A DNA stretch of 64,000 nucleotides from Geodermatophilus poikilotrophus. GTDB taxonomy: Bacteria; Actinomycetota; Actinomycetes; Mycobacteriales; Geodermatophilaceae. Shown in pieces: positions 5,672-61,094 of the stretch. The DNA is taken from NCBI RefSeq assembly GCF_900111455.1, contig NZ_FOIE01000006.1, positions 124,001 to 188,000 of the forward strand, written 5' to 3'. Numbering within the stretch: the first letter of the stretch is position 1; every line of letters starts with the position of its first letter. Below the pieces are notes generated by a model, which saw nothing but the letters and a program-made list of their open reading frames with translations, was not told the origin of the DNA and made no database searches. Made by a program: the position numbers and the translations under genes.

Positions 5672-5726
5672 GGCCCCCTGCCGGGCCCCGCCGCGAGCCT
5701 GCGAGCGGTGGGGGCAGGGGTCCTCC
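5672..5726 (-). repeat. Family A intergenic hairpin, copy next to the bL37 stop
   Basis: The element reads GGCCCCCTGCC...GCGAGCCTGCGAGC...GGGGGCAGGGGTCCTCC and ends two bases before the bL37 stop on this strand. Its arms are complementary around the GCGAGC-type loop, the common layout of this family. Confidence 0.75.
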
Positions 5727-5727
5727 G

Positions 5728-5802
5728 TCAGGCGTTGGGGCGCTTGCCGTGGTTGGCCTTGTTCCCCTTGCGGGAGCGCCGCTTGCGTCCACGCTTGGAC
5801 AT
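5728..5802 (-). CDS. 50S ribosomal protein bL37 (24 aa)
   Basis: A tiny basic protein of the actinobacterial large ribosomal subunit, also listed under the AURKAIP1/COX24-like domain. Translation from ATG 5802 gives MSKRGRKRRSRKG and ends NHGKRPNA, the family's C-terminal signature. AAGGAGG lies 7 bases before the ATG, an excellent ribosome binding site. Thirteen of its 24 residues are Lys, Arg or His, as expected for a peptide buried in rRNA. It stands alone between the rsrA terminator and the biotin-carboxylase-like gene. It is shorter than the usual gene-calling cutoff, so it is easily missed. Confidence 0.9.
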   Translation of the reverse strand: MSKRGRKRRSRKGNKANHGKRPNA

Positions 5803-6030
5803 CGCCGCCCTCCTTCCCTCGTTGCTGCTGCGGACCCGGTGCGGGCCCCTGGACACCTCTGGGTGACTCGGGGCGCGTGCGGTGCTGCGACCCCGGGGAG
5901 ACCCGTCAGGCTGGACCCCCAGCCTCTCACGAGCCGGTGCGGCACCACCCCCCCTGTGGCGGTCCCGCGGGGCGACGGGTCAGGCTGGGGAGCGGAACGA
6001 CGCCGAGGTCGGTGGAAGGCGGTTCGGGAC

Positions 6031-7071
6031 GTGGCACACGTCGGGATCGAGAGCGTGCTGGTGGCGGGCCGAGGGCCGGCTGCGTGCGCGGTGGTGGCGG
6101 CCTGCTCCCGCCTGGGCGTGAAGACGGTCGCCGTCCACTCCGAGGCCGACCGCTCCGCCCGCCACGTGCGGCTGGCCGACGACGCGATCCTGCTCGGCCC
6201 CGCGCCGGCCGCGGAGTCCTACCTGGCCGTGGACCGCATCGTCGAGGCCGCCCGCCGCAGCGGTGTGCAGGCCGTCCTCCCGGTGCCCCCGGCACTGGCC
6301 GGCAACGCCCGGCTCGCCGGTGCGGTGGTGGCCGCCGGCCTCACCTGGGTCGGTCCCTCCGCCGCGGTGCTCGAGCGGCTCGGGGGGGACGGCGTCGAGC
6401 CGGCCAGCGAGCGCGGCTTCCTCGCCCTGGTCAGCGACGGCGGCCTGCGCTGCACGACCCCGGTGTCCCGCGACCGCGCGGCCGGCATCGCCCGGGTCTC
6501 CTGGACCCCCGACGAGCCGTTCGAGCTGCCTCCGGCGGCCAAGCGGCTGCCGGAGATCGGCTGGCGCGGGCTGGTCACCGTCGGCATCGCCCCGGACGGC
6601 GAGCTCGCCGAGGTGGCGGCCGGCTTCTCCCTGGACACGCCGGTGCTGGAGCGGGCGTACGGCGTGGACGCCGTCGAGCTCGCGCTGCGCAGCGCGACGG
6701 GCGCGTCGGCCGCCGATGCCGGGACGGGCGCGCCGCCGCGGCGGGCGGTGGCCGTCCAGCTGCGGTCCACCCTGCCCCCGGGTCAGGGTGGTCGGATCAC
6801 CGGTCGGCTGCCGCGGTCGGGCCGGCTCACCGGCGGAGCGCGCGGCGTCGACGTGGTGGCGGTGAGCGGCTACGACCCCGGGGACCGGCTGGACCGCTGG
6901 TACGACGCCCTGCTGGCGACCGTCAGCGCCGGGGCCCGGGAGACCGTCACCGCGGCCCGCGCCGTCAGGGACGTGCTCAACGCCGTGCCCGAGGTCGGCG
7001 TGCCGCACGACGGCCCGGAGGTGTGCGCGGTGCTCGAGCGGCTGGCGTCCGGCGGTGCCGCAGAGGCCTGA
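6031..7071 (+). CDS. Biotin-carboxylase-like protein lacking the ATP-grasp domain
   Basis: Residues 1-110 resemble the N-terminal domain of acetyl/propionyl-CoA carboxylase biotin carboxylase: SVLVAGRGPAACAVV, VAVHSEADRSARHVRLADDA and AESYLAVDRIVEAAR. The last ~130 residues resemble its C-terminal domain, with LDRWYDALLATVSAG in place of the usual D-YYDPLLAKLI-G. The central ATP-grasp is missing: only ~100 residues lie between, with no glycine-rich ATP loop and no catalytic Lys/Glu/Arg set, so it cannot be an ordinary carboxylase. At 346 aa it is about 100 shorter than a real biotin carboxylase. The start GTG 6031 is a choice; GGAAGG lies 10 bases upstream. A biotin carrier gene follows within 65 bases. 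Confidence 0.7.
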   Translation: MAHVGIESVLVAGRGPAACAVVAACSRLGVKTVAVHSEADRSARHVRLADDAILLGPAPAAESYLAVDRIVEAARRSGVQAVLPVPPALAGNARLAGAVVAAGLTWVGPSAAVLERLGGDGVEPASERGFLALVSDGGLRCTTPVSRDRAAGIARVSWTPDEPFELPPAAKRLPEIGWRGLVTVGIAPDGELAEVAAGFSLDTPVLERAYGVDAVELALRSATGASAADAGTGAPPRRAVAVQLRSTLPPGQGGRITGRLPRSGRLTGGARGVDVVAVSGYDPGDRLDRWYDALLATVSAGARETVTAARAVRDVLNAVPEVGVPHDGPEVCAVLERLASGGAAEA

Positions 7072-7135
7072 CGCGGGTTCCCGGGACAGGGCGCGTGCCA
7101 GGATGGGCGGCAGGACGGTCGAGGAGGTGCTGGTG

Positions 7136-7354
7136 GTGGTCGAGGAGATCCACGCCGAGATGGTGTCGAGCGTGTGGAAGGTGCTCGTGCAGCCCGGCAG
7201 CGAGGTGGCCGCCGGTGACACCCTGGTGATCCTCGAGTCGATGAAGATGGAGATCCCCGTCCTCACCGAGCAGGCGGGCACCGTCCGCGAGCTGCACGTC
7301 GTCGAGGGCGAGGTGCTCCAGGAGGGCGACCTCATCGCCACGGTCGACGGTTGA
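7136..7354 (+). CDS. Small biotinylated carrier protein (TB7.3 type)
   Basis: A stand-alone biotinyl domain of 72 aa. The biotin-accepting lysine is Lys37 in LESMKMEIPV, and the C-terminal half VVEGEVLQEGDLIATV closes the barrel. From GTG 7136 the start MVEEIHAEMVSSV lines up with the 71-aa M. tuberculosis Rv3221c (TB7.3). In-frame GTG codons at 7127 and 7133 and an ATG at 7103 are alternatives; GAGGAGG at 7121-7127 favours 7133 or 7136. It follows the biotin-carboxylase-like gene and precedes pdtaS, as TB7.3 does in mycobacteria. Which carboxylase it serves is unknown. Confidence 0.88.
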   Translation: MVEEIHAEMVSSVWKVLVQPGSEVAAGDTLVILESMKMEIPVLTEQAGTVRELHVVEGEVLQEGDLIATVDG

Positions 7355-7409
7355 AGGACCCCCTGCCCCCCGCCACTCGCAGGCTCGCGGCGGGACCCTG
7401 CAGGGGGCC
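7355..7409 (+). repeat. Family A intergenic hairpin, archetypal copy
   Basis: It begins directly after the TGA of the biotin carrier gene with AGGACCCCCTGCCCCCCGCC, has the loop ACTCGCAGGCTCGC and ends GGCGGGACCCTGCAGGGGGCC. The arms are complementary. It lies between convergent genes. Confidence 0.8.
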
Positions 7410-7421
7410 GACGGAGCCGCC

Positions 7422-7928
7422 TCACAGCTCCCTGACGTACACCAGCAGGTCGATGCCGGGCGCAGGCTCCCAGTCGCGCTCCGGCAGCCGGGTGAACCCC
7501 AGCCGCTCGTAGAGGCGCTGCGCCGTCGTCATCCGCCGGTCGGTGGACAGGACCACGCGCCGCTTGCCGGCCGTCCGCGCCCGCTCCAGGCAGGCGGTCA
7601 CCAGCAGCTCACCGATGCCGCGGCCCTGCACGGCCGGGTCGACGACCAGCATCCGGAACGCCGCCTCGTCGTCGGACTCGGTGACCTCGCCGAAGTCGCC
7701 CTCGAGGACCAGCGCGACGCTGCCGACCACGCGACCCTCGTCGTCCCGCACGACGAGCAGCTCGGCCCGGTCGGCCCGCCCGGCGACGTCGCGCAGCTGC
7801 TCGCCGTACGCGGCGGAGGCCAGCCCACCGCCCACGTAGACGTCTGCGGTGAGCTGCCCGATCCGCGCGAAGTCGTCGGGACGGGCGCGGTCGACGGCCC
7901 GGGCCGGTGCGTCGGGGGACGAGGACAC
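7422..7928 (-). CDS. GNAT-family N-acetyltransferase
   Basis: It transfers an acetyl group from acetyl-CoA to an unknown amine. The 168-aa product has the GNAT core: a beta-strand ending MLVVDP, then the acetyl-CoA pyrophosphate loop VQGRGIGELLV (about residues 97-107), and the C-terminal AQRLYERLGF segment. The start is GTG 7928. A TAGGCT box (7941-7936 on this strand) ends 7 bases upstream without a Shine-Dalgarno sequence, which fits leaderless transcription. It converges on the biotin carrier gene. Nothing nearby identifies the substrate. Confidence 0.88.
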   Translation of the reverse strand: MSSSPDAPARAVDRARPDDFARIGQLTADVYVGGGLASAAYGEQLRDVAGRADRAELLVVRDDEGRVVGSVALVLEGDFGEVTESDDEAAFRMLVVDPAVQGRGIGELLVTACLERARTAGKRRVVLSTDRRMTTAQRLYERLGFTRLPERDWEPAPGIDLLVYVREL

Positions 7929-8039
7929 GACGACGAGCCTAAGCGGGCTCCGGCCTCACCCACCCCCGCGAGCCCGGCGGCCCCCCCGGTAGCGGCCCCG
8001 CCGCCGGCCGCGCCCCGGGTCCCACCCTGAGCGTACGAG

Positions 8040-8094
8040 AGGTGGGAGGACGGGGTCCTTCCACGGTGGGGGGCAGGGGAGTCCTCTCTCATAC
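8040..8094 (-). repeat. Partial/nested family A hairpin upstream of pdtaS
   Basis: The segment AGGACGGGGTCC (inner-arm type) is followed by GGTGGGGGGCAGGGG and TCCTC (outer-arm type). These are the right halves of two family A elements on this strand. A TACCCT -10-like box for pdtaS lies at its edge (8092-8097). Confidence 0.5.
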
Positions 8095-8107
8095 CCTCGG
8101 AGCCACC

Positions 8108-9592
8108 ATGAACAGCCTCTCCGAACGCCTCACCCGCGGCTCCGCCTCGGCGCCGGCCCAGGTCGACCACGCCCGCCGGCTGGTCGCCGACTGGCAGCTG
8201 CTCGCCGACCTGTCCTTCGCCGACCTGACGCTGTGGGTGCCGCTGCGCACCGGCGCGTGGTGGTGCGTCGCGCAGGTGCGCCCGCTCACCGCACCCACCA
8301 GCCAGCCCGAGGACCTCGTCGGCTCGGAGGTGGAGGGGCCGGCCGCCGGGCCGTTCCTGGTCGCCCACCGCGAGGGCCGCCCGGTGACCGAGGGGGAGCC
8401 GGACTGGTCGGGCAGCACCCCGCGGCGGCGGGAGGTCGTCCCGGTGCGCCACGACGGTGTCGTCGTCGCCGTCCTGGCGCGGGACACCAACCTGGCGGTG
8501 ACCCGGTCGCCGTCCACCCTGGAGCTGACCTACCTCGACATCGCCGCCGACCTCTGCCTCATGGTCTCGGCCGGCACCTTCCCGCCGCAGAAGCCGCTCG
8601 ACGGCGAGCTGAGCCCGCGGGTGGGGGACGGGCTGGTGCGGCTGGACGCCGACGGCCGCGCGGTCTACGCCAGCCCCAACGCGCTGTCGGCCTACCGCCG
8701 TCTCGGGGTCACCGGGGACGTCGTCGGCGCCGACCTGGCCCGCCTCACCCGGGACGCCGCGGCCGACCGGGTGGGCGGCGAGGCGGTCGCCGCCGGCATC
8801 CGGGCCGCGGTGGCCGGGCGGTTCCCCGACCCGATGGACGTCGAGAGCGTGGCGGCGACCCTGCTCGTGCGGGCGCTGCCGCTGCAGGCACCCGGCGCCG
8901 AGGCGGGTGCGCTGGTGCTGGTGCGCGACGTCACCGACCTCCGCCGGCGGGACCGCGCGCTGCTGACCAAGGACGCCACCATCCGGGAGATCCACCACCG
9001 GGTGAAGAACAACCTGCAGACGGTGGCCGCGCTGCTGCGGCTGCAGGCGCGCCGGATGACCGAACCCGCGGTCCGCGAGGCGCTGGAGGAGTCGGTGCGG
9101 CGGGTGTCGTCCATCGCGGTGGTCCACGAGACGCTGGCCGGCAGCCGCGAGGACGTGGTGGACGTCGACGACGTCCTGGACCGGGTGCTGCCGATGCTCG
9201 GTGACCTGACCTCCGTGGGTCCGGCGGCGCGGACGCGGCGGGTCGGCCAGTTCGGCGAGCTCCCGGCGGAGGCCGCCACCCCGCTGGTGCTGGTGGTCAC
9301 CGAGCTGCTGCACAACGCCGCCGAGCACGCCTTCCCCGACGGCAGCCCGGGCAGCATCGAGCTGGTGGCCGAGCGGGACGGCGACGACCTGGTGGTCCGG
9401 GTGCGGGACGACGGGCGGGGTCTGCCCGAGGGCTTCGACCTCTCCGCCAGCGACGGGCTGGGCCTGCAGATCGTGCGCACGCTGGTCGCCAGCGAGCTGG
9501 GCGGCAGCCTCGCCATGGGGCGCCCGGGCGACGGTGGCACCGGCACCGAGGTGGTCCTCACCCTGCCCGGCGCGGCACGGCTGCGCCGGTAG
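8108..9592 (+). CDS. pdtaS: Sensor histidine kinase PdtaS (HisKA_2 type)
   Basis: A soluble two-component kinase whose usual partner is the ANTAR RNA-binding regulator PdtaR; no PdtaR gene lies in this window. The 494-aa chain has an N-terminal GAF-like domain (about 20-150), a PAS-like segment (about 165-280), the HisKA_2 box with the phosphoacceptor in REIHHRVKNNLQTVAALLRL (about 295-315), and an ATPase domain with N-box ELLHNAAEHAF and G-box DDGRGLPEGF/GLGLQIV. The start ATG 8108 is chosen because Mtb PdtaS (501 aa) has a similar length. The -10 TACCCT at 8092-8097 ends 10 bases before it. A perfect hairpin terminator follows. Its place between the TB7.3-type gene and whiB1 matches mycobacteria. 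Confidence 0.93.
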   Translation: MNSLSERLTRGSASAPAQVDHARRLVADWQLLADLSFADLTLWVPLRTGAWWCVAQVRPLTAPTSQPEDLVGSEVEGPAAGPFLVAHREGRPVTEGEPDWSGSTPRRREVVPVRHDGVVVAVLARDTNLAVTRSPSTLELTYLDIAADLCLMVSAGTFPPQKPLDGELSPRVGDGLVRLDADGRAVYASPNALSAYRRLGVTGDVVGADLARLTRDAAADRVGGEAVAAGIRAAVAGRFPDPMDVESVAATLLVRALPLQAPGAEAGALVLVRDVTDLRRRDRALLTKDATIREIHHRVKNNLQTVAALLRLQARRMTEPAVREALEESVRRVSSIAVVHETLAGSREDVVDVDDVLDRVLPMLGDLTSVGPAARTRRVGQFGELPAEAATPLVLVVTELLHNAAEHAFPDGSPGSIELVAERDGDDLVVRVRDDGRGLPEGFDLSASDGLGLQIVRTLVASELGGSLAMGRPGDGGTGTEVVLTLPGAARLRR

Positions 9593-11906: not shown

Positions 11907-11982
11907 AGGACCCCGCCGTTCCCCGGCCCCGTCCAGAGGCTCACCGCGAGCTCGCGAGCGGTGAGGAGGACGGGGTCCTCTC
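11907..11982. repeat. Family A hairpin, nested, between convergent stops
   Basis: A left arm GGACCCCGCCGTTCCCCGG leads into a second element GGCCCCGTCC...GCGAGCTCGCGAGC...GGACGGGGTCCTC in the opposite orientation, which ends directly at the stop of the HAD gene. The intergenic space is essentially made of these two elements. Confidence 0.7.
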
Positions 11983-12799: not shown

Positions 12800-13288
12800 T
12801 CAGCGGAGCCCGCGGCGGTCGGCCGCGAAGTCGGTCAGGGCGTCGTCGGTGAGCCGGAAGACCGTCCACCCGTCCATCGGCACGGCACCCGCCGCCTCGT
12901 AGAACTCGATCGAGGGGGTGTTCCAGTCCAGCACCGACCACTCGAGTCGGCTGTACCCGCGCTGCAGGCACAGGTCGGCCAGCGTGCGCAGCAGCTCCCG
13001 GCCCAGCCCGCTGCCGCGGTGCTGCGGCTGGACGTAGAGGTCCTCGAGGTGGATGCCGTGGGTGCCGCGCCAGGTGGAGAAGGTGAGGAACCACAGCGCC
13101 ATCCCGACGACCTGCCCGCCGGCCTCGGCGACGTGACCGAAGAGCCCGGGGGACTCGGCGAACAGCGCCGCGGACAGCTGCTCCTCGGTCATCCGGGCCT
13201 CGTGCGGGGCCTCCTCGTACCCGGCCAGCTCCCGCACCAGGTCCACCAGGGCGGCGACGTCGTCGGGGGCCACGGGCCGGACGCTCAC
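12800..13288 (-). CDS. GNAT N-acetyltransferase, diamine-acetyltransferase-like
   Basis: An acetyl-CoA-dependent N-acetyltransferase of 162 aa. Its layout resembles spermidine/spermine and thialysine acetyltransferases: RELAGYEEAP near residue 20, then FLTFSTWRGTHGIHLEDLYVQ, the acetyl-CoA loop QHRGSGLGRELL (about 92-103), and WNTPSIEFYEAAGA near the C-terminus. The GTG start (13288) overlaps the pssA stop by 4 bp (GTGA), which links its translation to the phospholipid genes. The substrate is inferred only from family resemblance. Confidence 0.88.
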   Translation of the reverse strand: MSVRPVAPDDVAALVDLVRELAGYEEAPHEARMTEEQLSAALFAESPGLFGHVAEAGGQVVGMALWFLTFSTWRGTHGIHLEDLYVQPQHRGSGLGRELLRTLADLCLQRGYSRLEWSVLDWNTPSIEFYEAAGAVPMDGWTVFRLTDDALTDFAADRRGLR

Positions 13289-14801: not shown

Positions 14802-14919
14802 CGAGGTCAGACGGTACCGGGGAGCAGTCGCACGTCACGACCGGTCGGTGTCCGGGAGACGACCGGGTCGTGGCGGGCCCGGCAGACTGTGGTCCGGCTC
14901 CGCTGCACGGGCCGGCCGC

Positions 14920-15038
14920 GGCCCCGTCCCGGGTTCCGCCGGCCCCTGCAGGATCCCGCCACGAGCTCGCGAGCGACGGGGAGCAGCAGGTCCTCCCAGG
15001 ACGGGGTCCGTCCACGGCGGGGAGCAGCGGGGGCCCTT
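14920..15038 (-). repeat. Cluster of nested family A hairpins upstream of psd
   Basis: A GGCCCCGTCCCGGGTTCCGCC left arm is followed by a complete inner element (GGCCCCTGCAGG...ACGAGCTCGCGAGC...AGCAGGTCCTC). The matching right arm GGACGGGGTCC comes next, then a further right-arm sequence GGCGGGGAGCAGCGGGGGCCC. It ends one base before the stop of the next gene. Together with 14802-14919, which shows nothing else, it fills the 238-base gap. Confidence 0.65.
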
Positions 15039-18977: not shown

Positions 18978-19017
18978 GACTGCACTCCCTTCCCCCTCCC
19001 CTCGGGGGCTCGCGCCA

Positions 19018-19078
19018 GGCCCCGTCCAGAGGCCCGCCGCGAGCTCGCGAGGGGTGCGGAGGACGGGGTCCTCCTCCC
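19018..19078 (-). repeat. Family A intergenic hairpin
   Basis: It reads GGCCCCGTCC, then GCCGCGAGCTCGCGA in the loop, then GGAGGACGGGGTCCTCCTCC. The orientation matches the downstream end of the DUF457 gene on this strand. The rest of 18978-19094 shows only polypyrimidine. Confidence 0.7.
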
Positions 19079-24131: not shown

Positions 24132-24190
24132 AACGGCCCCGTCCGGGGTTCCGGCCCGAGGTGGGCGAGGTGCGGGCAGGACGGGGTCCT
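24132..24190 (-). repeat. Family A intergenic hairpin
   Basis: GGCCCCGTCCGGGGTTCCGGC forms one arm, and GCAGGACGGGGTCC the other, ending three bases before the stop of the ankyrin gene. The central part (CCCGAGGTGGGCGAGGTGCG) departs from the usual GCGAGCTCGC loop. The rest of 24046-24193 shows nothing. Confidence 0.6.
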
Positions 24191-24193
24191 CGC

Positions 24194-25003: not shown

Positions 25004-25058
25004 GGGGGATCCCCGTTCCGTTCGGGAGGACGGTGCTCCGTGCGCTCGAGCTCTGCCC

Positions 25059-25114
25059 GGCCCCCTGAAGGGCCCCGCCGCGAGCCTGCGAGCGGTGGGG
25101 GGCAGGGGGTCCTC
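25059..25114 (-). repeat. Family A intergenic hairpin next to the permease stop
   Basis: GGCCCCCTGAAGGGCCCCGCC, loop GCGAGCCTGCGAGC, then GGTGGGGGGCAGGGGGTCCTC, ending two bases before the permease stop on this strand. It is nearly the mirror image of the copy at 7355. Confidence 0.8.
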
Positions 25115-27559: not shown

Positions 27560-28633
27560 GTGGTGGCGGACGCCGGCGACGCCCACGAGGCGCTGCTGCG
27601 CCTGCTGCTGGAGGGTCCGCGCCGCTACACCCGGCTGCAGATCGCAGCGATGGCCGGGCTGCCCCCCGAGCACACCCGGCGGCTGTGGCGGGCGCTCGGC
27701 TTCCCCGACGCCGCCGACGACGACCCGGTCTTCGCCGACGCCGACGTCCGGGCGCTGGAGCTGCTGCGCGCGCTCATCGACTCCGGGTTCGTCGAGCCGG
27801 GGACGGAGGCCTCGATCGCCCGCGCGATGGCGCAGTCGCTGTCGCGGCTGGCCGACTGGCAGACCGACCTGCTGGCCGACGCCCTGTCCCGCAGCGGGAA
27901 CGACCCCGGGCGGCGCGCCGTCCCGCCGGGGGAGGCGGTGGCCGCCGCGCACCGCCTCTTCCCGCTGCTGCGGGACGTGCAGGACTACGTGTGGCGACGG
28001 CACCTGGCGGCCAACGCCGACCGGCTGCTCACCCCGGCGGCCGCCGTCGACCGGAGGGAGCTCGCCGTCGGCTTCGCCGACCTGGTCGGCTACACCAGCC
28101 GCAGCCGGGGGATGGGCGGGCGGGAGCTCGGCGCGATGGTGGAGGACTTCGAGAGCACCGCCAGCGAGGTCATCGCCCGCCACCACGGCCGGGTGGTCAA
28201 GATGGTGGGGGACGGCGTCCTCTACACCGCCGTCTCCGCGATCGACGCCGTGGAGATCGGGCTGGAGCTGCCCGAGGCCTGGCAGGCCGAGGACCGCCCG
28301 CCGCTGCGGGTGGGCGCCGCCTTCGGCACCGTGCTCACGCACCTGGGCGACGTCTACTCGCCGGTGGTGAACCTGGCCAGCCGGCTCACCTCGATCGCCC
28401 GGCCCGGCACCCTGCTGGTCGACCGGGACCTCGCCCGGCACCTGCGCGGGCTGCCCCGCTACCGGGTGCGGCCGCTGCGCCGGGTGTCGGTGCGCGGCTA
28501 CGACGACCTGCAGCCCTGGCTGGTGCAGCGCCGTCCGGCGGGGGAGGCCGACCTCGCGCTGGAGTCCATGCTCGACGAGATGGCCGACGACGTCCTCGAG
28601 GACGACGACCTGGAGAACGACCTGGAGGACTGA
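27560..28633 (+). CDS. Class III adenylate cyclase with N-terminal regulatory domain (Rv1264-like), paralog 1
   Basis: It makes cAMP. Residues 1-160 form an alpha-helical autoregulatory domain of the type that senses pH in M. tuberculosis Rv1264 (YTRLQIAAMAGLPPEHTRRL, then SLSRLADWQTDLLADAL). The catalytic domain begins at ELAVGFADLVGYTSRSRG with the first metal Asp (about residue 173). It continues with RVVKMVGDGVLY (second Asp, about 217, and a substrate-binding Lys) and PVVNLASRLTSIA, holding the transition-state Asn and Arg (about 270). All are present. GTG 27560 follows AGGA by 7 bases. The C-terminal tail is very acidic (EDDDLENDLED). A paralog is at 62409-63473. Confidence 0.92.
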   Translation: MVADAGDAHEALLRLLLEGPRRYTRLQIAAMAGLPPEHTRRLWRALGFPDAADDDPVFADADVRALELLRALIDSGFVEPGTEASIARAMAQSLSRLADWQTDLLADALSRSGNDPGRRAVPPGEAVAAAHRLFPLLRDVQDYVWRRHLAANADRLLTPAAAVDRRELAVGFADLVGYTSRSRGMGGRELGAMVEDFESTASEVIARHHGRVVKMVGDGVLYTAVSAIDAVEIGLELPEAWQAEDRPPLRVGAAFGTVLTHLGDVYSPVVNLASRLTSIARPGTLLVDRDLARHLRGLPRYRVRPLRRVSVRGYDDLQPWLVQRRPAGEADLALESMLDEMADDVLEDDDLENDLED

Positions 28634-28692
28634 GGACGGACCCCCGGCCGCCCGCCACTCGCGAGCTCGCGGCGGGACCCTGCAGCGGGCCG
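28634..28692 (+). repeat. Family A intergenic hairpin after the adenylate cyclase
   Basis: It begins at the base after the TGA: GGACGGACCCCCGGCCGCCC, loop ACTCGCGAGCTCGC, then GGCGGGACCCTGCAGCGGGCC. The right half is nearly identical to the copy at 7355. Confidence 0.8.
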
Positions 28693-30377: not shown

Positions 30378-31152
30378 CGGGACCTCGCTGCCCCCCACCC
30401 CCGGCCCCGTCCAGGGCACCGCGCCGGGCCGGCGACGGGCGGGGAGGGCGGGGTCCTCCTGCTGCAGCGTGGCCGGCCCCCAGGACGGCGGCGACCGCGT
30501 ACTCGGCCGTCGTCGCCAGCTCCTGCGGCGTCGCGCCGGCCGAGGACAGCGCCGGCAGCAGGTGGACGTCGGCCAGGACGTCGGCGCCGCCGGTCCAGCG
30601 CAGCGCCGCCCGGAGCGACCGCGCGCCCGACGCCGGTCCCGGCGCGCCCCCCGAGCAGCGGACGGCGACCGGGCACACGGGCGCCCCGGTGGCGACGGCG
30701 GCGGCGAGCAGGTCGGGGGAGAACCGGCCCAGCGCCGTCCCGCCGTCGGTGGGCAGCTCGGGGCGGACGAGGACCGACGTCCCCCGGGCCAGCGCCGCCG
30801 CGACGTCGGCCACGGTCGCTCGGACGCTCGGGCACGGGACGCCGGCGACGCGCTCGGGGGCGGGCGCGGCGACCACCACCCCCCGCAGCACGGTGAGCAG
30901 CACCAGCGGGTCCAGGGGCGAGGCGGAGTTCGCCACGAGCAGCAGGCCCGGCCCGGTGCGGGTGCGCGGCCAGGCCTCGGCCGGCACGTGGACGGCGACG
31001 CGCACCCCGAGGCCGGTCAGCAGGCGGGCCGCTCCGCAGACGGTCCGGCGCCGGGCGTCGCCCACCGGCGGGCGCAGCCGCTCGGCGGCCAGGACGGCGC
31101 CGGCACGCAGCAGGCGTGAGCCGTCGGTGGTCGGGCTGGACGGACGGGTCAC
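30367..31152 (-). CDS. Degenerate 1-acylglycerol-phosphate acyltransferase-like protein (PlsC fold)
   Basis: The order of segments resembles PlsC-type acyltransferases: GPGLLLVANSASPLDPLVLL in place of the usual NHxSxxD box, then a weak VLVRPELPTDGG-LGRFSPDLLAAA in place of the EGTRS/GxxxxA regions. The catalytic histidine is missing (Ser in NSASPLD), so ordinary activity is unlikely. The 261-aa chain is very rich in Ala, Val and Gly. Its last ~30 residues (GGPRPPRPSPARRGAL...) are read through an intergenic repeat (30378-30466), and its stop lies inside the end of the ABC-F gene, overlapping by 11 bp. It may be a decaying gene. Confidence 0.6.
30378..30466. repeat. Family A hairpins read as the 3' end of the PlsC-like gene
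   Basis: GGACCTCGCTGCCCCCCACC starts just after the ABC-F stop and is followed by a second unit GGCCCCGTCC...GGGCGGGGAGGGCGGGGTCCTCC. On the minus strand the whole stretch is in the reading frame of the PlsC-like gene. Confidence 0.6.
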
Positions 31153-42097: not shown

Positions 42098-43179
42098 CGA
42101 CGCAGCTGCCCGTCCGGGGCTCGGTCTCCCCGCTGTGGCCGGGACTCATCGAGGCCTACCGCTCGCGGCTGCCGGTCAGCGACAGCACCCCGGTGGTCAC
42201 CCTCCAGGAGGGGGCGACCCCGCTGGTGCCGGCGCAGGAGCTGTCCCGCCGCACCGGCTGCGACGTCTACCTCAAGGTCGAGGGCGCCAACCCGACCGGG
42301 TCGTTCAAGGACCGCGGGATGACCATGGCCATCACCAAGGCCAAGGAGGAGGGCGCCCAGGCGGTCATCTGCGCGTCCACCGGCAACACCAGCGCCAGCG
42401 CCGCCGCCTACGCGGCCCGCGCCGGGATGGTCTGCGCCGTCCTGGTCCCGCAGGGGAAGATCGCGCTGGGCAAGCTGGCGCAGGCACTGGTGCACGGCGC
42501 CAAGCTGCTGCAGGTCGACGGCAACTTCGACGACTGCCTCGCGCTGGCCAGCAAGCTGGCGATCGACTACCCGGTCAGCCTGGTCAACAGCGTCAACCAG
42601 TACCGGATCGAGGGGCAGAAGACCGCCTCGTTCGAGATCGTCGACGTGCTCGGCGACGCCCCGGACGTCCACTGCCTGCCGGTCGGCAACGCCGGCAACA
42701 TCACCGCGTACTGGCAGGGCTACCGCGAGTACGCCGCCGACGGCACCGCCACGAGGACGCCGCGCATGTGGGGCTTCCAGGCCGCCGGCGCCGCCCCGAT
42801 CGTCACCGGGCAGGTCGTCGAGCAGCCGCAGACCATCGCCACCGCCATCCGCATCGGCAACCCGGCGTCCTGGACCAAGGCGCTGGCCGCCCGGGACGAG
42901 TCCGGCGGCCGGATCGACGCCGTCACCGACCGGGCCATCCTCGCGGCCTACCGGCTGCTGGCCCGCACCGAGGCGGTCTTCGTCGAGCCGGCGTCCGCCG
43001 CGTCGGTGGCCGGTCTGCTGCAGGTCGCCGAGGCCGGCGGGCTCGAGCCGGGGCAGCGGGTCGTCTGCACCGTCACCGGCAACGGGCTCAAGGACCCGGA
43101 GTGGGCGATCTCCGGCGCGCCGGCCCCGGTGACCGTGCCGGTCGACGCCGCAGCCGCCGCCGCGCAGCTCGGCCTGTGA
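42094..43179 (+). CDS. thrC: Threonine synthase
   Basis: A PLP enzyme that converts phosphohomoserine to threonine. The PLP lysine is in [15 protein letters not shown] (about residue 70). [20 protein letters not shown] (about 92-111) binds the phosphate, and [17 protein letters not shown] (about 196-212) binds the cofactor. The 361-aa length is that of the short actinobacterial class. ATG 42094 overlaps the hom TGA. thrB follows, separated by an intergenic repeat. Confidence 0.97.
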
Positions 43180-43218
43180 GCGATCCGGGGCGACCACGTC
43201 CTGCCCGCCACCCGGAGG

Positions 43219-43259
43219 GGGACCCCCTGCCCCCCACCGCGCGAGCCTGCAGCGGGCCG
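43219..43259 (+). repeat. Family A hairpin between thrC and thrB
   Basis: GGGACCCCCTGCCCCCCACC, short loop GCGCGAGCCTGC, AGCGGGCC. The copy is shortened. If thrB starts at GTG 43176 it is translated in frame as DPLPPTARACSGP. Confidence 0.75.
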
Positions 43260-43283
43260 ACCCCGGACGCGGCCGAGACCCCC

Positions 43284-44195
43284 GTGGTGCGCGTCCGCGT
43301 GCCCGCGACCAGCGCCAACCTCGGCCCGGCGTTCGACAGCGCCGGGCTGGCGCTGACCTGCCACGATGTCGTCGAGTTCGCCGTCCGGCGCAGCGGCCTC
43401 GAGGTCGCGCTGACCGGCGAGGGGGCGCGCACGCTGCCCACCGACGAGTCGCACCTCGTCGTCCGGGCGTTCCGCGCCGGGTGCGACGCGCTCGGCTGGA
43501 CGCCGCCGGGGCTGGCCGTCGTCGCGCGGAACGGCATCCCGCAGGGGCGGGGGATGGGCTCGTCGGCCGCCGCGGTGGTCGCCGGTCTGGTCGGCGCGTG
43601 GGCGCTGTGCCCCGAGGTCCGGGGCGTCGACCGGGACGCCGTGCTGCGGCTCGCCACCGAGCTGGAGGGGCACCCGGACAACGTCGCCCCGTGCCTGCTC
43701 GGCGGCGCGACGCTGTCGTGGGTGACCGCTGGCGGCGCCCGCGCCGAGCAGCTCGAGGTCTCGCCCGACCTGGTGCCGGTGGTGCTCGTCCCCGACGGGA
43801 CGCTGTCCACCCACGTCGCCCGCGGCCTGCTGCCCGACGCCGTCCCGCACGCCGACGCCTCGTTCAACGCCGGGCGGGCCGCGCTGCTGGTGCACGCGCT
43901 GACCGCCGCGCCCGGCCTGCTCTTCGACGCGACCGAGGACCGGCTGCACCAGCGGCAGCGCGCGGCGGCCATGCCCGACTCCGCGCAGCTGCTCGACCGG
44001 CTGCGCGCGGCCGGTCACGCCGCCGTCGTCTCCGGTGCGGGACCGAGCCTGCTCGTCCTCACCCGCCGCTCCGCCGGCGAGGACGTCCTGCGCGAGGTGG
44101 GAGACCTCACCCCTCGGGGTTGGTCCGTGCGGGTCCTGGACGTCGATCCCGGCGGTGCAGACCTGCAGGTCGGGACCCCTGGGGTATCGTCTTGA
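43284..44195 (+). CDS. thrB: Homoserine kinase
   Basis: A GHMP kinase that phosphorylates homoserine. It has VRVRVPATSANLGPAFDSAG (residues 2-21), the ATP loop NGIPQGRGMGSSAAAVVAGL (about 83-102), GHPDNVAPCLLGG and the C-terminal AAVVSGAGPSLLVL. From GTG 43284 it is 303 aa, the usual length. GTG 43176 overlaps the thrC TGA by 4 bp, like the other junctions in this operon, and would add 36 residues encoded partly by the repeat at 43219-43259. Neither start has a clear ribosome binding site, so the N-terminus is open. Confidence 0.93.
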   Translation: MVRVRVPATSANLGPAFDSAGLALTCHDVVEFAVRRSGLEVALTGEGARTLPTDESHLVVRAFRAGCDALGWTPPGLAVVARNGIPQGRGMGSSAAAVVAGLVGAWALCPEVRGVDRDAVLRLATELEGHPDNVAPCLLGGATLSWVTAGGARAEQLEVSPDLVPVVLVPDGTLSTHVARGLLPDAVPHADASFNAGRAALLVHALTAAPGLLFDATEDRLHQRQRAAAMPDSAQLLDRLRAAGHAAVVSGAGPSLLVLTRRSAGEDVLREVGDLTPRGWSVRVLDVDPGGADLQVGTPGVSS

Positions 44196-44443: not shown

Positions 44444-46618
44444 GTGAGCGAGACCACCGACCTCGTCACCGCGCCGCAGGGCGCAGGCAACGACGAGGCA
44501 CCTGCCGCTTCTGGGACGACGGGCCGCACCCGTCGCCGCGGCAGCGGGCTCTCCGGCATGCTGCTGCCCGAGTTGCAGCGACTGGCCGCCGAGCTCGGCA
44601 TCTCCGGCACCGGCCGGATGCGCAAGGGCGACCTGGTCGCCGCCATCTCCGCCCGCCAGGTGGGCGGGGAGAGCACTGGTGGCGCCTCCACCAACGGCGC
44701 CTCCGCCGACATCCCGGCCGCCCGTGGCGCCGACACCGCCCGCGGGGTGGCCGCCACGGCCACACCGGTCGAGGCCCCGATCAGCGGTGGCGCCAACGGC
44801 GGCCCGCTGACCTCCTCGTCCGACGCGGGCACCGAGGCCGCACCGCGCCGCCGTCGTGCGGCCAGCCGGCCGGCCGGCGCCCCGGCGATCGAGGGCACCG
44901 CTCCGGCGGCCGAGGGCTCCGCTCCGGTGGCCGAGGGCTCCGCTCCGGCGGTCGAGGCCGCGCCGAGCGCGCCCGAGCCGCGCGCCGAGACCCCTGCCTC
45001 CGCCGCCGGTACGGCTCCCGAGCAGGCCGACGACGAGCGCACCGAGGGAGACCGTCCGCAGCGCAACCGCGACCGTGGGCGCAGCCGCGGCGAGCGCGAC
45101 GGCGGCAACCGGGGCGACGCCCGCGAGCGCGAGGGCAACCGGGACGGCGGCGACCGCGCCGAGCGCGGCAACCGCAGCGACCGCGACGCCAACCGCAGCG
45201 ACCGCGACGCCAACCGCAACGAGCGCGACGGCAGCCGGAGCGAGCGGGACGGCAACCGCGGTCCCGACCGGGGCGAGCGCGGCGGCCGGCCGGACAACCG
45301 GAACGACAACCGCAACGACCGCACCGAGCGCGGGAACGACAACCGCAACGGCAACGACGAGGACGACGACGACTTCGAGGGCGGTCGCGGCCGCCGGGGT
45401 CGCCGCTACCGGGACCGCAACCGCCGGGGCACCAACAGCCGCGAGCGGTTCGACCAGAACGAGCCGACCGTCAGCGAGGACGACGTCCTGCTGCCGGTCG
45501 CCGGCATCCTCGACGTGCTCGACAACTACGCGTTCGTCCGCACCTCGGGCTACCTGACCGGCCCAAACGACGTCTACGTCTCGCTGTCGCAGGTGCGCCG
45601 CTACGGCCTGCGCCGCGGTGACGCGATCACCGGCGCCGTCCGCCAGCCCCGCGAGGGCGAGCGCAAGGACAAGTACAACGCGCTGGTCCGGCTGGACACC
45701 GTCAACGGCCTGGAGCCCGAGCAGGCCCGGCAGCGCCCGGAGTTCACCAAGCTGACCCCGCTCTACCCGCAGGAGCGCCTGCGGCTGGAGACCGAGTCGC
45801 ACCAGCTGACGACCCGGGTCATCGACCTGGTCATGCCGATCGGCAAGGGGCAGCGGGCGCTCATCGTGTCGCCTCCCAAGGCCGGCAAGACGATGGTGCT
45901 GCAGTCGATCGCCAACGCGATCACGACGAACAACCCCGAGTGCCACCTCATGGTCGTCCTCGTCGACGAGCGGCCCGAGGAGGTCACCGACATGCAGCGC
46001 TCGGTGAAGGGCGAGGTCATCGCCTCGACCTTCGACCGGCCGCCGTCGGACCACACCACGGTCGCCGAGCTGTCCATCGAGCGGGCCAAGCGCCTGGTCG
46101 AGATGGGCCACGACGTCGTCGTCCTGCTGGACTCGATCACCCGCCTGGGCCGCGCCTACAACCTGGCGGCCCCCGCCAGCGGGCGCATCCTCTCCGGTGG
46201 TGTCGACTCCACGGCGCTCTACCCGCCCAAGCGCTTCCTCGGCGCCGCCCGCAACATCGAGAACGGCGGCTCGCTGACCATCATCGCCTCGGCGCTGGTG
46301 GAGACCGGCTCCACGATGGACACGGTCATCTTCGAGGAGTTCAAGGGCACCGGTAACGCGGAGATCAAGCTGGACCGTCGCCTGGCGGACAAGCGGGTCT
46401 TCCCGGCCGTCGACGTCAACGCGTCGGGCACGCGCAAGGAGGAGATCCTCATGTCGCCCGACGAGCTGGCCATCGTCATCAAGCTGCGCCGGGTGCTCGC
46501 CGCGCTCGAGCCGCAGCAGGCGCTGGAGCTGCTGCTCGACAAGCTGCGCAAGACGCGCAACAACATCGAGTTCCTCATGCAGATCCAGAAGACGACACTC
46601 GGCCCCGGCAACGACTGA
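44444..46618 (+). CDS. rho: Transcription termination factor Rho with long basic insertion
   Basis: A hexameric RNA helicase that ends transcription. The 724-aa chain starts with a Rho_N-like segment ([20 protein letters not shown], about 35-54). A ~270-residue low-complexity region follows: Ala/Pro/Glu repeats (EGSAP units), then Arg/Asp/Asn-rich repeats (NRSDRDA units). The RNA-binding cold-shock domain is around [20 protein letters not shown]. The ATPase has Walker [17 protein letters not shown] (about 476-491), [14 protein letters not shown], and the bicyclomycin region [20 protein letters not shown]. Such insertions are usual in actinobacterial Rho. GTG 44444 follows GGAAGGA by about 8 bases. 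Confidence 0.96.
45170..45211 (+). repeat. Perfect 21-nt tandem repeat inside rho
   Basis: Two identical 21-base units (45170-45190, 45191-45211), each encoding Asn-Arg-Ser-Asp-Arg-Asp-Ala, sit in the Arg/Asp-rich insertion. Three imperfect 24-base units encoding AEGSAPV/A-like blocks lie upstream around 44888-44960. Being in frame, such units can grow or shrink without breaking the gene. Confidence 0.85.
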
Positions 46619-46674
46619 GGACCCCGCTGCCCCCGCCGCGCGCACGCTCGCGGCGGGGCCCTGCAGCGGGGCCG
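46619..46674 (+). repeat. Family A intergenic hairpin after rho
   Basis: It starts directly after the TGA with GGACCCCGCTGCCCCCGCC, loop GCGCGCACGCTCGC, and ends GGCGGGGCCCTGCAGCGGGG. Position and orientation are as at 7355 and 28634. Confidence 0.8.
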
Positions 46675-46732
46675 GTTCCAGCACGTCGCCAGGCGTCAGG
46701 GACACTGGGCGACCGAGCCCCGCTGCGCGGCC

Positions 46733-46758
46733 GGAATGACCAGCCGGCCGCCGGCGTT
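46733..46758 (+). promoter_or_regulatory. SigR-type promoter of rpmE
   Basis: GGAAT (46733-46737), exactly 18 bases, GTT (46756-46758): a perfect match to the actinobacterial SigR consensus. The rpmE start is 38 bases further on. rpmE is a known SigR target in Streptomyces coelicolor. Confidence 0.85.
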
Positions 46759-46796
46759 CGACCACCTGAACGGCACAGACCACCGGAAGAGGCGAC

Positions 46797-47021
46797 ATGA
46801 AGCCCGGCATCCACCCCGACTACCACACCACCACGGTGACCTGTGGTTGCGGGAACACCTTCACCACCCGCAGCACGGCGCCCGGCGGCACGCTGACCGT
46901 CGAGACCTGCTCCGCCTGCCACCCCTTCTACACGGGCAAGCAGCGGATCCTGGACACCGGCGGCCGCGTGGCCCGCTTCGAGAAGCGGTTCGGCAAGCGC
47001 AACGCCAACGCCGGCCAGTAG
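46797..47021 (+). CDS. rpmE: 50S ribosomal protein bL31
   Basis: A surface protein of the large subunit. The 74-aa chain starts [20 protein letters not shown] and has the zinc-binding set of the C+ type: Cys16, Cys18 and the [10 protein letters not shown] pair (Cys37 and Cys40). [19 protein letters not shown] follows. GGAAGAGG precedes ATG 46797. The SigR promoter upstream points to thiol-stress induction, consistent with redox-sensitive zinc cysteines. A perfect 18-bp terminator follows. Confidence 0.97.
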
Positions 47022-57338: not shown

Positions 57339-58853
<1,515 letters not shown>

Positions 58854-58856
58854 AGG

Positions 58857-58941
58857 AGGACCCTCCTGCCCCCGCCACTCGTAGGAGGACCCCGTCCTCC
58901 CCGCCCCTTGCGAGCTCGGGGCGGGGCCCGGGACGGGGCCG
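58857..58941 (+). repeat. Nested family A hairpins after atpD
   Basis: An outer unit begins GGACCCTCCTGCCCCCGCC and reaches its loop (ACTCGTA). A complete inner unit follows: GGAGGACCCCGTCCTCCCC, loop CTTGCGAGCTCG, GGGCGGGGCCC, GGGACGGGGCC. The right half of the outer unit is missing. Confidence 0.75.
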
Positions 58942-58963
58942 GTGGGGCCGATCGCGCCGCCGA

Positions 58964-58997
58964 GAACGGCCGGGTCCCGAACGGGACCCGGCCGTTC
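58964..58997 (+). terminator. Terminator-like hairpin between atpD and atpC
   Basis: Perfect 15-bp stem GAACGGCCGGGTCCC (58964-58978) with GGGACCCGGCCGTTC (58983-58997), loop GAAC, followed by CGTGTGTTCC. It is expected to lower read-through from atpD into atpC. Confidence 0.8.
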
Positions 58998-59142
58998 CGT
59001 GTGTTCCGGCCCGGTGCGGGTAGCACTCGGCCGGCGACACCGGCCGGCTGGTGTGGTGCGGGTCGCCTCAAGGGCGAGCCACGCCGTGCCGATCTCGTGC
59101 GGGGACGCCCGGAGCGGCTGGGCGACGAGCGGGAGAGACGAC

Positions 59143-59322
59143 GTGGACGGCTTCACCGGGAGCAGGGCGGACGGCGGCGACTGGAGCTGGCCTCCGTCCG
59201 CTGCGGTGCCCTACGTCGGCGGCCGGCAGTTCCACACCGAGAGCTGGGCGCCGGCCTCGACGGTCCGCCGTCCGTGGGTGCGCGTCGGGCGCTGGACCCT
59301 GCTGTACCGCCGCTGCGCCTGA
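59143..59322 (+). CDS. Small tryptophan-rich protein (putative) between atpD and atpC
   Basis: Not recognised. GTG 59143 is preceded by GGGAGAG at a good distance, and the 59-aa frame keeps the high third-position GC of real genes here. The product has six Trp (for example [10 protein letters not shown] and [16 protein letters not shown]) and a basic C-terminus, with no membrane span or signal peptide. It could be a genuine small gene inserted in the atp operon or a chance frame; the ribosome binding site favours the first. Confidence 0.45.
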
Positions 59323-59485
59323 GGCAGGCCCCCCGCCCAGGGGCCAGGGCGGGGCTGCCGGGACCCTGACGGGGGACCTCGGCGGGGGCCGGGCGGGTGC
59401 GCCACTAGAGTGGAGGCGACCGTCGCCGTGTCCAGCCGGGACCCGGCGAGCCGAACCGCCGGTCGGTGGACCCCCGAGGAGTGTC

Positions 59486-59875
59486 GTGGCGACCCTGCAT
59501 GTCGAGTTGGTGGCCGTCGAGCGGATGATCTGGTCCGGCGAGGCCAACATGGTCGTCGCGCGCACCACGGAGGGCGAGCTCGGTGTGCTGCCGGGGCACG
59601 CCCCGCTGCTGGGCCAGCTCGCCGAGGGCGGCATCGTGACCGTCCGAACGGTCGAGGGCGAGGACATGGTCGTCGCGGCCCACGGGGGCTTCCTCTCGGT
59701 CACCGACCGCGGTGTCTCGATCCTCGCCGAGACCGCCGAGATCTCCTCGGAGATCGACGTCGAGCGGGCCCGCGAGGCCCTGCGCCGCGCCGAGGAGGCG
59801 GGGGACGACCCCGACGCCCTGGCCGCCGCCCGGCGCGCCCAGTCACGACTGCGCGCCGCGGGTCAGGACGCCTGA
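59486..59875 (+). CDS. atpC: ATP synthase F1 subunit epsilon
   Basis: The rotor subunit that couples gamma to the c-ring and inhibits ATP hydrolysis. The 129-aa chain has the beta-sandwich ([36 protein letters not shown]) and a C-terminal helix pair [16 protein letters not shown] and [16 protein letters not shown] lies 5 bases before GTG 59486. It is separated from atpD by 632 bases and probably needs its own promoter or read-through. Confidence 0.96.
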
Positions 59876-59913
59876 GCCCCTGACGACGTCCCGCCTGACC
59901 CCCGGCGCCCCGG

Positions 59914-60318
59914 ATGACGACCGAACTGCTCGTCCTGGCCGTCGCGGTGGTCCTCGTCGGACTGGTCGTCGCCTTCCTGCTGCGCCGCCACTTCCTGCTC
60001 TCCGGGCTCGGCGCGGTCACCATGTGGTTGCGCCCGACGGGTTCGCCCCGCTGGTCGGTGGGGGTCGCCTGGTACGGCGGTGACTCGCTGCTCTGGTACC
60101 GGGCGCTGTCGCTGTCGGTGCGCCCGCAGCAGCGGCTCTGCCGCGCGGAGTTCCGCGTGCAGGGACGGCGCCGTGCGGGTGCCGGGGACGTCGCTCTGCC
60201 CGAGGACGTCGTCGTCCTCTCGTGCAGCACCGCGGCCGGCCCCCGGGAGCTGGCCATGGACACCTCGACGGTGACCGGCTTCCTGTCCTGGGTCGAGTCC
60301 GCGCCGCCGGTGCGGTGA
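59914..60318 (+). CDS. DUF2550 membrane-anchored protein
   Basis: A 134-aa protein that regularly follows atpC in actinobacteria (Rv1312 in M. tuberculosis). An N-terminal span (LLVLAVAVVLVGLVVAFLLR, about 5-24) is followed by a beta-rich cytoplasmic domain with RHFLLSGLGAVTMWLR, WSVGVAWYGGDSLLWYRAL and LAMDTSTVTGFLSWVE. Function unknown. ATG 59914 is 38 bases after the atpC stop. Confidence 0.9.
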   Translation: MTTELLVLAVAVVLVGLVVAFLLRRHFLLSGLGAVTMWLRPTGSPRWSVGVAWYGGDSLLWYRALSLSVRPQQRLCRAEFRVQGRRRAGAGDVALPEDVVVLSCSTAAGPRELAMDTSTVTGFLSWVESAPPVR

Positions 60319-60365
60319 AGGACCCCCGCCAGGGCGCCGCTCGGAGCGTGCGAGGGAGGGGGTCC
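60319..60365. repeat. Shortened family A hairpin between convergent genes
   Basis: AGGACCCCCGCCAGGGCGCC, loop GCTCGGAGCGTGCGAG, GGAGGGGGTCCT, filling the gap between the DUF2550 stop and the adenosyltransferase stop. Confidence 0.65.
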
Positions 60366-60367
60366 TG

Positions 60368-60970
60368 CTACTCGCGGGCCGCGCGCTGTGCGTGGACCCC
60401 GCTGTGCGCGCCGGGCTCCCACAGCACGTCACCGTCCGGGTTCGCGACGCGGGCGAGGATGAACAGCAGGTCCGACAGCCGGTTCAGGTAGCGGGCGGTC
60501 TCGGCGTTGCTGCGCTCGCCGTCGGCCTCCAGCAGCGCCCACACGCTGCGCTCGGCCCGTCGGGTGACGACCCGGGCCTGGTGCAGCAGCGCGGCCAGCG
60601 GGGTGCCGCCCGGCAGGATGAAGCTGGTCAGCTTCGGCAGCGCCTCGTTGTAGCGGTCGCAGGCCGCCTCCAGCCGCTCGGTGTAGGCGGCGGTCACCCG
60701 CAGCGGCGGGTACTGCGGGTCGGGGGTGACCGGGGTGGAGAGGTCGGCCCCGACGTCGAACAGGTCGTTCTGCACGCTGCGCAGCAGCTCGATGAGCTCG
60801 GAGGACGGCGACCCGAGAGCCAGGGCGACGCCGAGGACGCTGTTGGCCTCGTCGACGTCGGCGTAGGCCACCAGGCGCGGATCGGTCTTGGCCACCCGGC
60901 TCATGTCCCCGAGGTGCGTCTGACCGGCGTCGCCGGTCTTCGTGTAGATGCGGGTCAGCCGGACGGTCAT
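60368..60970 (-). CDS. Cob(I)alamin adenosyltransferase, PduO type
   Basis: It adds the 5'-deoxyadenosyl group to cob(I)alamin, giving coenzyme B12. The 200-aa four-helix protein has the ATP-binding N-terminus RIYTKTGDAGQTHLGDMSRV (about 6-25) and YADVDEANSVLGVALA (about 35-50). The helix with FILPGGTPLAALLHQARVVT (about 118-137) and RRAERSV, then RYLNRLSDLLFILAR (about 163-177), complete it. ATG 60970 has TAGGCT (60983-60978 on this strand) 7 bases upstream and no ribosome binding site, hence probably leaderless. A B12-dependent mutase gene begins 3 kb away at the window's end. Confidence 0.94.
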   Translation of the reverse strand: MTVRLTRIYTKTGDAGQTHLGDMSRVAKTDPRLVAYADVDEANSVLGVALALGSPSSELIELLRSVQNDLFDVGADLSTPVTPDPQYPPLRVTAAYTERLEAACDRYNEALPKLTSFILPGGTPLAALLHQARVVTRRAERSVWALLEADGERSNAETARYLNRLSDLLFILARVANPDGDVLWEPGAHSGVHAQRAARE

Positions 60971-60988
60971 GGCCGCGAGCCTAGAAGA

Positions 60989-61094
60989 AGGACCCCGCTG
61001 CCCCCCACCGTGGGAGGACCCCGTCCTCCTCATCCCTCGCACGCTCGGGACGAGCCGCTGGACCGGGCCGGCGGTGGGGCCCTGCAGCGGGGCC
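60989..61094. repeat. Family A hairpin interrupted in its loop by another copy
   Basis: The outer left arm AGGACCCCGCTGCCCCCCAC (60989-61010 with CG) pairs with the outer right arm GGCGGTGGGGCCCTGCAGCG to 61094. Between them (61011-61069) lies an inner element TGGGAGGACCCCGTCCTCCT...GCACGCTCGGG...GACCGGGCC. The nest fills the gap between two divergent leaderless promoters. Confidence 0.85.

Follow-up and report, generated by a model that had tools for sequence, protein, structure and literature searches.

The 64,000 nt of the Geodermatophilus poikilotrophus genome analyzed here (assembly GCF_900111455.1, contig NZ_FOIE01000006.1, positions 124,001 to 188,000; hereafter the window) carry, at 15 loci, members of a family of hairpin elements about 57 nt in length. 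A first-pass annotation of this sequence had proposed that these loci share one hairpin family, and a covariance model built from 13 window copies finds a related hairpin at all 15 of them. Thirteen loci score 55.9 to 79.7 bits (E ≤ 1.1e-8), and two, at 43218 (27 bits, E 0.0049) and 60319 (24 bits, E 0.017), are degenerate. The 13 strong loci are the training rows of the model, and independent support must therefore come from other data, namely, exact words and matches elsewhere in the genome. The 4.83-Mb genome has 107 occurrences of the 13-mer GAGGACCCCGTCC and none of the reversed 13-mer, and the 14-mer CCCTGCAGNGGGCC, with one mismatch allowed, has seven matches in the window, compared with a mean of 0.68 after shuffling. 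When the window was compared with Rfam 15, the gathering score was reached by one tRNA only, and searches of the open-licence PMC library listed none that we recognized as a description of this hairpin family.

A hairpin family at 15 loci

The model describes the element as GG-A-CCCCNNNN, followed by one side of the upper stem, the loop, the other side of the upper stem, and NNNNGGGG-CC. Elements have the foot RAGGACC and the end GGGGCCG, and they fold into two stems: a lower one of about 10 bp, in which a single A bulges out on the 5' side, and an upper one of about 7 bp with a loop conserved around TCGC-NN-GCTC. The best-conserved parts are the foot, the loop around this motif, and the terminal GGCCG. 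In the alignment, which was fitted to the model and hence leans towards its structure, 87.4% of the cells pair, and two-sided changes are found in 108 cells, compared with 32.3 after shuffling and at most 14 for slid structures. Arm variants compensate one another (CTGC/GCAG, GTCC/GGAC, and others), so that the arm sequences quoted in the first-pass annotation are correct for one subtype but do not represent the general form.

The element resides in 13 of the 37 intergenic gaps of at least 60 nt, fewer than the "almost every larger gap" that had been proposed. Loci also differ from the earlier picture of one element each, because nested copies, in which one element replaces the apical loop of another, were read directly at 8040, 14920, 30378, 58857, and 60989, and 19018 is possibly a further case. 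The copy at 8040, previously called partial, is a complete inner element within an outer one. The copies in the window are listed here; G013, G024, G025, and similar handles denote other genomes.

5671..5725, minus strand: full element, 4 nt past a TGA stop (60.4 bits); G024 has a related copy (arm match 83, compared with a null mean of 66)
7354..7410, plus strand: full element (77.9 bits); orthologous gap empty in G025 and G013 (3 nt between stops)
8005..8060, minus strand: inner element of a nested pair (64.9 bits)
7994..8084, minus strand: outer element of that pair, arms GGACTCCCCTGCCCCCCACCG / GGCGGCGGGGCC (by eye)
11924..11980, minus strand: full element, 4 nt past a TGA stop (79.7 bits)
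11908-11924, plus strand: left-half-like fragment GGACCCCGCCGTTCCCC abutting the preceding element (by eye)
14940..14995, minus strand: innermost copy of a seemingly triple nest (63.4 bits)
14920..15009, minus strand: middle element of that nest, GGACCCCGTCC ... GGGACGGGGCC (by eye)
14896..15036, minus strand: probable outermost, diverged element, just past a TGA stop (by eye; diverged arms, less certain)
19017..19073, minus strand: full element, possibly within diverged outer arms (72.9 bits; outer arms by eye)
24134..24191, minus strand: full element, 4 nt past a TGA stop (58.0 bits)
25058..25114, minus strand: full element, 4 nt past a TGA stop (74.5 bits)
28636..28692, plus strand: full element, 4 nt past a TGA stop (65.1 bits); in the same place, an empty gap in G025 and a nested pair in G024
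30402..30458, minus strand: inner element, in the orientation opposite to its outer element (55.9 bits)
30380..30474, plus strand: outer element GGACCTCGCTGCCCCCCACC ... TGCAGCGTGGCC, 2 nt past a TAG stop (by eye)
43218..43259, plus strand: degenerate element with internal deletion (27 bits, E 0.0049); whole gap inverted in G024 (by eye)
46617..46674, plus strand: full element, its first bases overlapping a TGA stop, followed by the tail GTTCCAGCACGTCGCC (57.4 bits); gap compared across genera
58885..58941, plus strand: inner element of a nested pair (76.6 bits)
58858..58949, plus strand: outer element, 4 nt past the TGA of the open reading frame ending at 58853 (by eye); similar composites are dispersed (matches to query 1434-1533 elsewhere)
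60319..60367, no strand assigned: degenerate copy that lies between two convergent stops and carries GGACCCCC at each end (24.2 bits, E 0.017); near-identical ends on both strands
61014..61070, plus strand: inner element of a nested pair (73.6 bits)
60990..61094, plus strand: outer element; the composite of about 105 bp is a dispersed genus repeat (matched in many places at about 81-91% identity, query about 3568-3683)

Beside the element at 5671..5725 lies a perfect hairpin, AGAGGCCCAGAACCC/GGGTTCTGGGCCTCT, at about 5630-5664. This hairpin is kept with small changes in four genomes and is likely a bidirectional terminator.

Placement, turnover, and nesting

Positions relative to genes were analyzed in 464 kb of this genome, a sample of 20 stretches of which several were chosen after matches had been seen. 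Genes were called by a codon-usage script, and small genes may therefore be missed. The sample holds 82 copies at E 0.01, and 63 of these lie downstream of a gene on the same strand. Among 424 called stops, 60 have AGGACC on the same strand at most 8 nt away. At 35 stops, all TGA, the distance is exactly 4 nt, and TAG stops with AGGACC within 8 nt show a spacing of exactly 2 nt in seven of nine cases. Uniform placement within the gap was evaluated for the 55 of 82 copies that have a same-strand upstream gene and more than eight free positions: 20 copies are exactly 4 nt after the stop (1.2 expected), and 33 are at 0-7 nt (9.6 expected). With respect to gap type, 29 copies reside in 71 convergent gaps, compared with five in 69 divergent gaps.

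A G is frequently found four bases before RAGGACC. It is present in 112 of 141 copies in one set (59 of 66 matches, with seven partial or weak matches left out, plus all 82 copies from the 464 kb) and in 142 of 185 copies in another (taken from 272 full matches; near-complete, E ≤ 1e-3, and away from ends). By definition, the G holds for 55 TGA copies; outside these it is found in 87 of 130, and nested copies have it in 26 of 28 cases. Loosely, one register fits TGA stops, TAG stops, and loop junctions.

Stops were also compared among relatives by using the motif GG[AG]CC within 14 nt, which is loose, so that several rows are chance matches, and the relatives are not independent. The motif is present in just one member of 147 gene pairs, and in 121 of these the stop occupies the same codon, which indicates that the stop mostly pre-exists the element. 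Stop identity differs in 33 of these 147 pairs, compared with 43 of 467 pairs lacking the motif on either side and 15 of 91 that have it on both. Evidence that the element supplies the stop codon is mixed. In the gap at 46618-46797, which we take to be that between rho and rpmE, the gene ends in TAG in five of six empty genomes and in TGA (10) or TAA (2) in all 12 filled ones; this comparison comprises six window-side genomes and 12 of 14 named Geodermatophilaceae loci (L213 and L214 gave no gene-end match), with filled and empty states judged by eye. At C14:189938 of this genome (gap 157), the C-terminus is shorter where the element is present.

Comparison of orthologous gaps, as the first-pass annotation had suggested, reveals both empty and filled states among relatives. 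The gap at 7354-7422 holds a full copy in the window, a different copy in G003, and another on the other strand in G024, and it is empty in G025 and G013, in which three bases separate the stops (TGAagcTCA and TGAggcTCA). The difference between G003 and G013 at this gap is one 57-nt block. Beyond 46618, the element of Geodermatophilus dictyosporus separates the stop from a downstream stretch that in G. tzadiensis and G. telluris lies almost immediately behind the stop. Over 264 kb at a threshold of E 1e-3, this genome and its closest relative, G024, are both occupied at 33 gaps, only this genome at nine, only G024 at 12, and neither at 164, where one-sided counts are upper bounds. The corresponding numbers are 27, 13, eight, and 157 with G025, and 29, seven, 14, and 125 with G003. 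Gaps with one side shorter than 50 nt, and thus too short for a full copy, number four (G024), six (G025), and seven (G003).

Gaps occupied in both this genome and G024 were used to compare content. Here, 23 copies of this genome have a counterpart in the same orientation, and six have one in the opposite orientation only. For the 23 pairs, gene ends are 96.7% identical, and the elements have a median identity of 75.4%, compared with 76.1% for random pairs of copies within this genome, in a comparison in which an inner copy may be matched to an outer one. All 23 copies are closer to another copy of their own genome, a result that is a maximum over 107 and hence an unfair contest on its own. 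When only arms were considered, the median match to G024 was 68.8, compared with 64.6 for unrelated gaps, and four of 28 copies beat all 20 unrelated gaps; one of 23 beat unrelated gaps for G025, and four of 26 for G003. The near-random identity of the elements, together with the arms-only test, indicates that positions persist and contents change, with a few copies being inherited. Copies identical over their whole length are found in two pairs among 5,778 within this genome, at loci with different flanks. In a separate rearrangement, the gap at 43179-43284 is inverted whole (element and flanks) relative to G024, with adjacent gene ends 96-99% identical.

Nesting is likewise variable among relatives. 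A single element at C14:57556-57656 of this genome corresponds in G024 to a composite that shares its arms but whose loop is replaced by a second element. The locus C14:195936-196150 is nested in this genome, with the outer element only in G025 and neither element in G024. Composites of about 105 bp are dispersed in their own right. For 28 nested copies, the flank complementarity is -31.3, compared with -28.8 for shuffled partners, and none of 200 shuffles is as good. Nested junctions, read by eye, have three variable bases and show base loss in the outer loop. The first-pass annotation had overlooked the nested copies, the fixed distance of 4 nt from TGA, and the exchange of elements at positions that genomes share.

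Half-elements were also observed. Tandem repeats of the right half, with the tail TTCCAGCACGTCACC, are found at L084:15566-15712, in L087 from 17729, and in a joined G003 segment (151430-151551), and the left half alone is tandemly repeated at L080:15154-15266. Of 185 copies, 19 are followed by a tail resembling TTCCAG.

Copy number and distribution

The genome-wide profile search that had been suggested yielded at least 150 model matches in this genome, with 150 candidates scored. Scaling the copies of the 464-kb sample by the 13-mer (107 occurrences in the genome, 32 in the sample) gives about 270 copies. The 264-kb stretch of C14 has 45 copies, which extrapolates to about 400 when scaled by the 13-mer (12 of the 100 places listed) or to 820 when scaled by length, although this stretch contains the window, and the estimate derived from it is therefore biased too. 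We estimate that there are several hundred copies per genome.

The element was found in all 26 genomes of the genus (this one included) and, with one genome per genus examined, in eight of 11 further genera in the family; 24 genomes from different families of the order gave no match. In a larger draw, it is present in 101 of 112 family genomes and in nine of 12 genera. No match was found in 295 genomes drawn from the class outside the family, under stricter filters and with 19 candidates per genome, such that weak relatives could escape. Among 80 loci encoding the protein at 43284-44195, the best 14 are from Geodermatophilaceae, the basis for taking the sampled family to be this one. The model matches in six of these 14 (three Geodermatophilus, one Blastococcus, and two Modestobacter) and in none of the 66 others. 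Two genomes, G066 and G111, have zero copies, whereas their genus mates have 10 to at least 50, except G083 and G119 (g12), with two each. Such copy-free genomes beside copy-rich genus mates should be useful for finding a mover.

Two further observations concern other sequences. A second short motif, about TGAGCGAGCTCGCGAGCTCA, appears to be inserted at operon stop/start overlaps in some relatives and looks like another dispersed family; such sites correspond to window positions 13285 and 40805 in relatives and, in the 264-kb stretch, to gaps 106 and 197. Also, two similar called genes, at 27560-28633 and 62409-63473 of the window, have stretches that are 71-77% identical and are probably paralogues.

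Proposed origin and spread of the elements

We believe that these elements probably constitute a non-autonomous mobile hairpin family that is similar in form to repetitive extragenic palindromic (REP) sequences, but that matches neither GTAG REPs with REP-associated tyrosine transposases (RAYTs) nor CGTC REPs. Copies would land at the 3' ends of genes, directly past the stop codon and mostly in gene orientation, and also in the apical loops of existing copies, with nested composites then spreading as units. Recognition of the folded strand, either single-stranded DNA or RNA, by an enzyme that would join its 5' side at a specific short site is suggested by the bulge on only one side, by the conservation of foot and loop while the stems covary, and by the G often present four bases upstream of the foot. 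If a new copy were to enter a resident one and the outer arms were then lost, this would account for gene ends that remain occupied although their elements differ.

Several results weigh against this reading. Placement at stop codons could also reflect retention by selection. One-sided occupancy is an upper bound because the "empty" side sometimes holds a diverged copy, as in the sub-threshold copies of gaps 40, 152, and 195 of this genome and of G025 at 46618-46797. No clear target-site duplication was found by eye, with boundaries blurred by short flank matches. As for nesting, about 7-13 nt of the outer loop appear by eye to be lost, unlike in simple transposition; a joined-flank score of at least 10 was obtained in 28 of 185 copies, compared with 10 to 14 for shuffled partners of the same family, in a weak test; and a loose complementarity set of 111 shows little difference (-29.0 versus -28.2). 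Moreover, the search for a mover gave only negative results: none of 76 family genomes has Y1_Tnp (PF01797), with the control matched in E. coli and others, no reverse transcriptase was found in this genome, and no left/right pair of halves around a gene, as would mark a gene-bearing parent element, was seen in the 1.6 Mb read, a minor part of each genome.

Other candidates were tried. Reverse transcriptases match in 12 of 29 chosen genomes (11 above the cut-off), untied to copy number, and were rejected as movers. IS91-type Y2_Tnp was found in none of 29 genomes, but its control matched nowhere, and the search is hence uninformative. A search for plasmid or phage carriers with a 112-nt composite gave no match at 1e-5.

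An alternative is that selection keeps the hairpins as gene-end structures, either terminators or 3' protectors of mRNA, at positions shared on account of the need for that function and with stems that drift rapidly with compensation. Such a role would be in keeping with the hairpin form, with copies right past stops and mostly in gene orientation, with the excess in convergent gaps, with the 33 gaps occupied in both this genome and G024, and with the strong covariation. However, TTTT within 12 nt was found in none of 185 copies (T share, 12.6%), and convergent genes of relatives only 3-4 nt apart manage without an element. A separate conserved hairpin is present in two inspected gaps: in the gap at 5615-6031 it is kept in four genomes, of which two differ in the element, and at C14:194202-194317 (gap 161) the element is between the stop and a hairpin common to G024. 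Identical copies at distant loci, and the complete lack of copies in G066 and G111, are also difficult to reconcile with this explanation, which we regard as unlikely. The earlier suggestion that the elements perhaps double as terminators finds no support in the data on T runs and separate hairpins.

Spread by DNA repair is another alternative. Cruciform loops would be cut, for instance by nucleases of the SbcCD type, and hairpin fragments of other copies might then be captured by end joining or template switching. The replacement of apical loops with loss of bases and three variable junction bases (by eye), the inversion of the whole gap at 43179-43284, and the tandem half-elements would all be explained. 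The presence of Ku in 29 of 29 genomes tested would fit as well, but Ku is found equally in genomes with copies and in the copy-free G066 and G111, and thus cannot account for the distribution of the element. End joining also leaves the 4-nt spacing from TGA and the G at -4 (87 of 130 non-TGA copies) without explanation, and we judge this route to be quite unlikely. It is highly improbable that the elements are true REPs moved by a RAYT or an IS200-type Y1 transposase. They do resemble REPs in being small palindromic intergenic repeats found mainly 3' of genes, as described in PMC3733652. Yet with no Y1_Tnp in 76 family genomes and none in this genome, a RAYT cannot be the resident mover, which contradicts the reading as far as known Y1 enzymes go; GTAG forms the foot in only eight of 185 copies, and no gene lies between half-elements in the 1.6 Mb. 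The proposal of a REP/MITE-type family (MITE, miniature inverted-repeat transposable element) therefore stands as regards a dispersed family with empty and filled orthologous gaps and identical copies with different flanks, but not as regards RAYT-linked REPs.

The general kind of repeat is already known, because REPs have been described mainly downstream of genes, and a CGTC class lacks a dedicated transposase (PMC3733652). As with GTAG REPs and REPINs with RAYTs (PMC3733652, PMC3116915), this family consists of short, palindromic, intergenic, many-copy repeats that are thought to be mobile and that occur mainly 3' of genes, between tandem and convergent genes. It differs in the lack of a Y1 transposase, in having GTAG at -4 to -1 in so few copies, and in an element of 57 nt rather than 20-40 nt, with a conserved loop, loop nesting, and replacement of content at shared sites. 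CGTC REPs are similar in being REP-like and without a linked transposase, but the present family lacks the CGTC tag, and its base at -4 is G in 142 of 185 copies. In the available text of PMC3733652, CGTC REPs are assigned to five named phyla and GTAG REPs to Proteobacteria, Cyanobacteria, Chloroflexi, and the PVC group, and the word "Actinobacteria" does not appear. This family also stands apart from both classes by its nesting, stop-codon spacing, and content replacement. MITEs are likewise short, non-autonomous, and dispersed, with inverted ends and presence or absence at orthologous sites, but no parent transposon was seen in the 1.6 Mb read and no clear target-site duplication was found. 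Integron attC sites share an imperfect hairpin with an unpaired base, just past a stop and in gene orientation, whereas the present elements are dispersed over the chromosome outside any cassette array.

More tentatively, these elements may represent a mobile hairpin system free of Y1 transposases for which stop codons serve as targets, with the stop retained or restored where the two sequences join; by also entering the loops of its own copies, the system would replace the element of a gene end faster than the neighboring genes diverge by 3-4%. We consider this possible, with some reservation. Palindromic repeats occupy many bacterial gene ends, and how those lacking a dedicated transposase spread is posed as an open question in PMC3733652. 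An estimated several hundred copies in each genome and sites seen before and after insertion, together with copy-free and copy-rich genomes in one genus, make the spread of REP-like repeats testable. Should it hold across the genome that sites are shared but their elements exchanged where flanks are 96-97% identical, this would tell whether a site is maintained by the host or by the element. If true, the proposed system would imply an undescribed, structure-recognizing mobilizing enzyme in Geodermatophilaceae.

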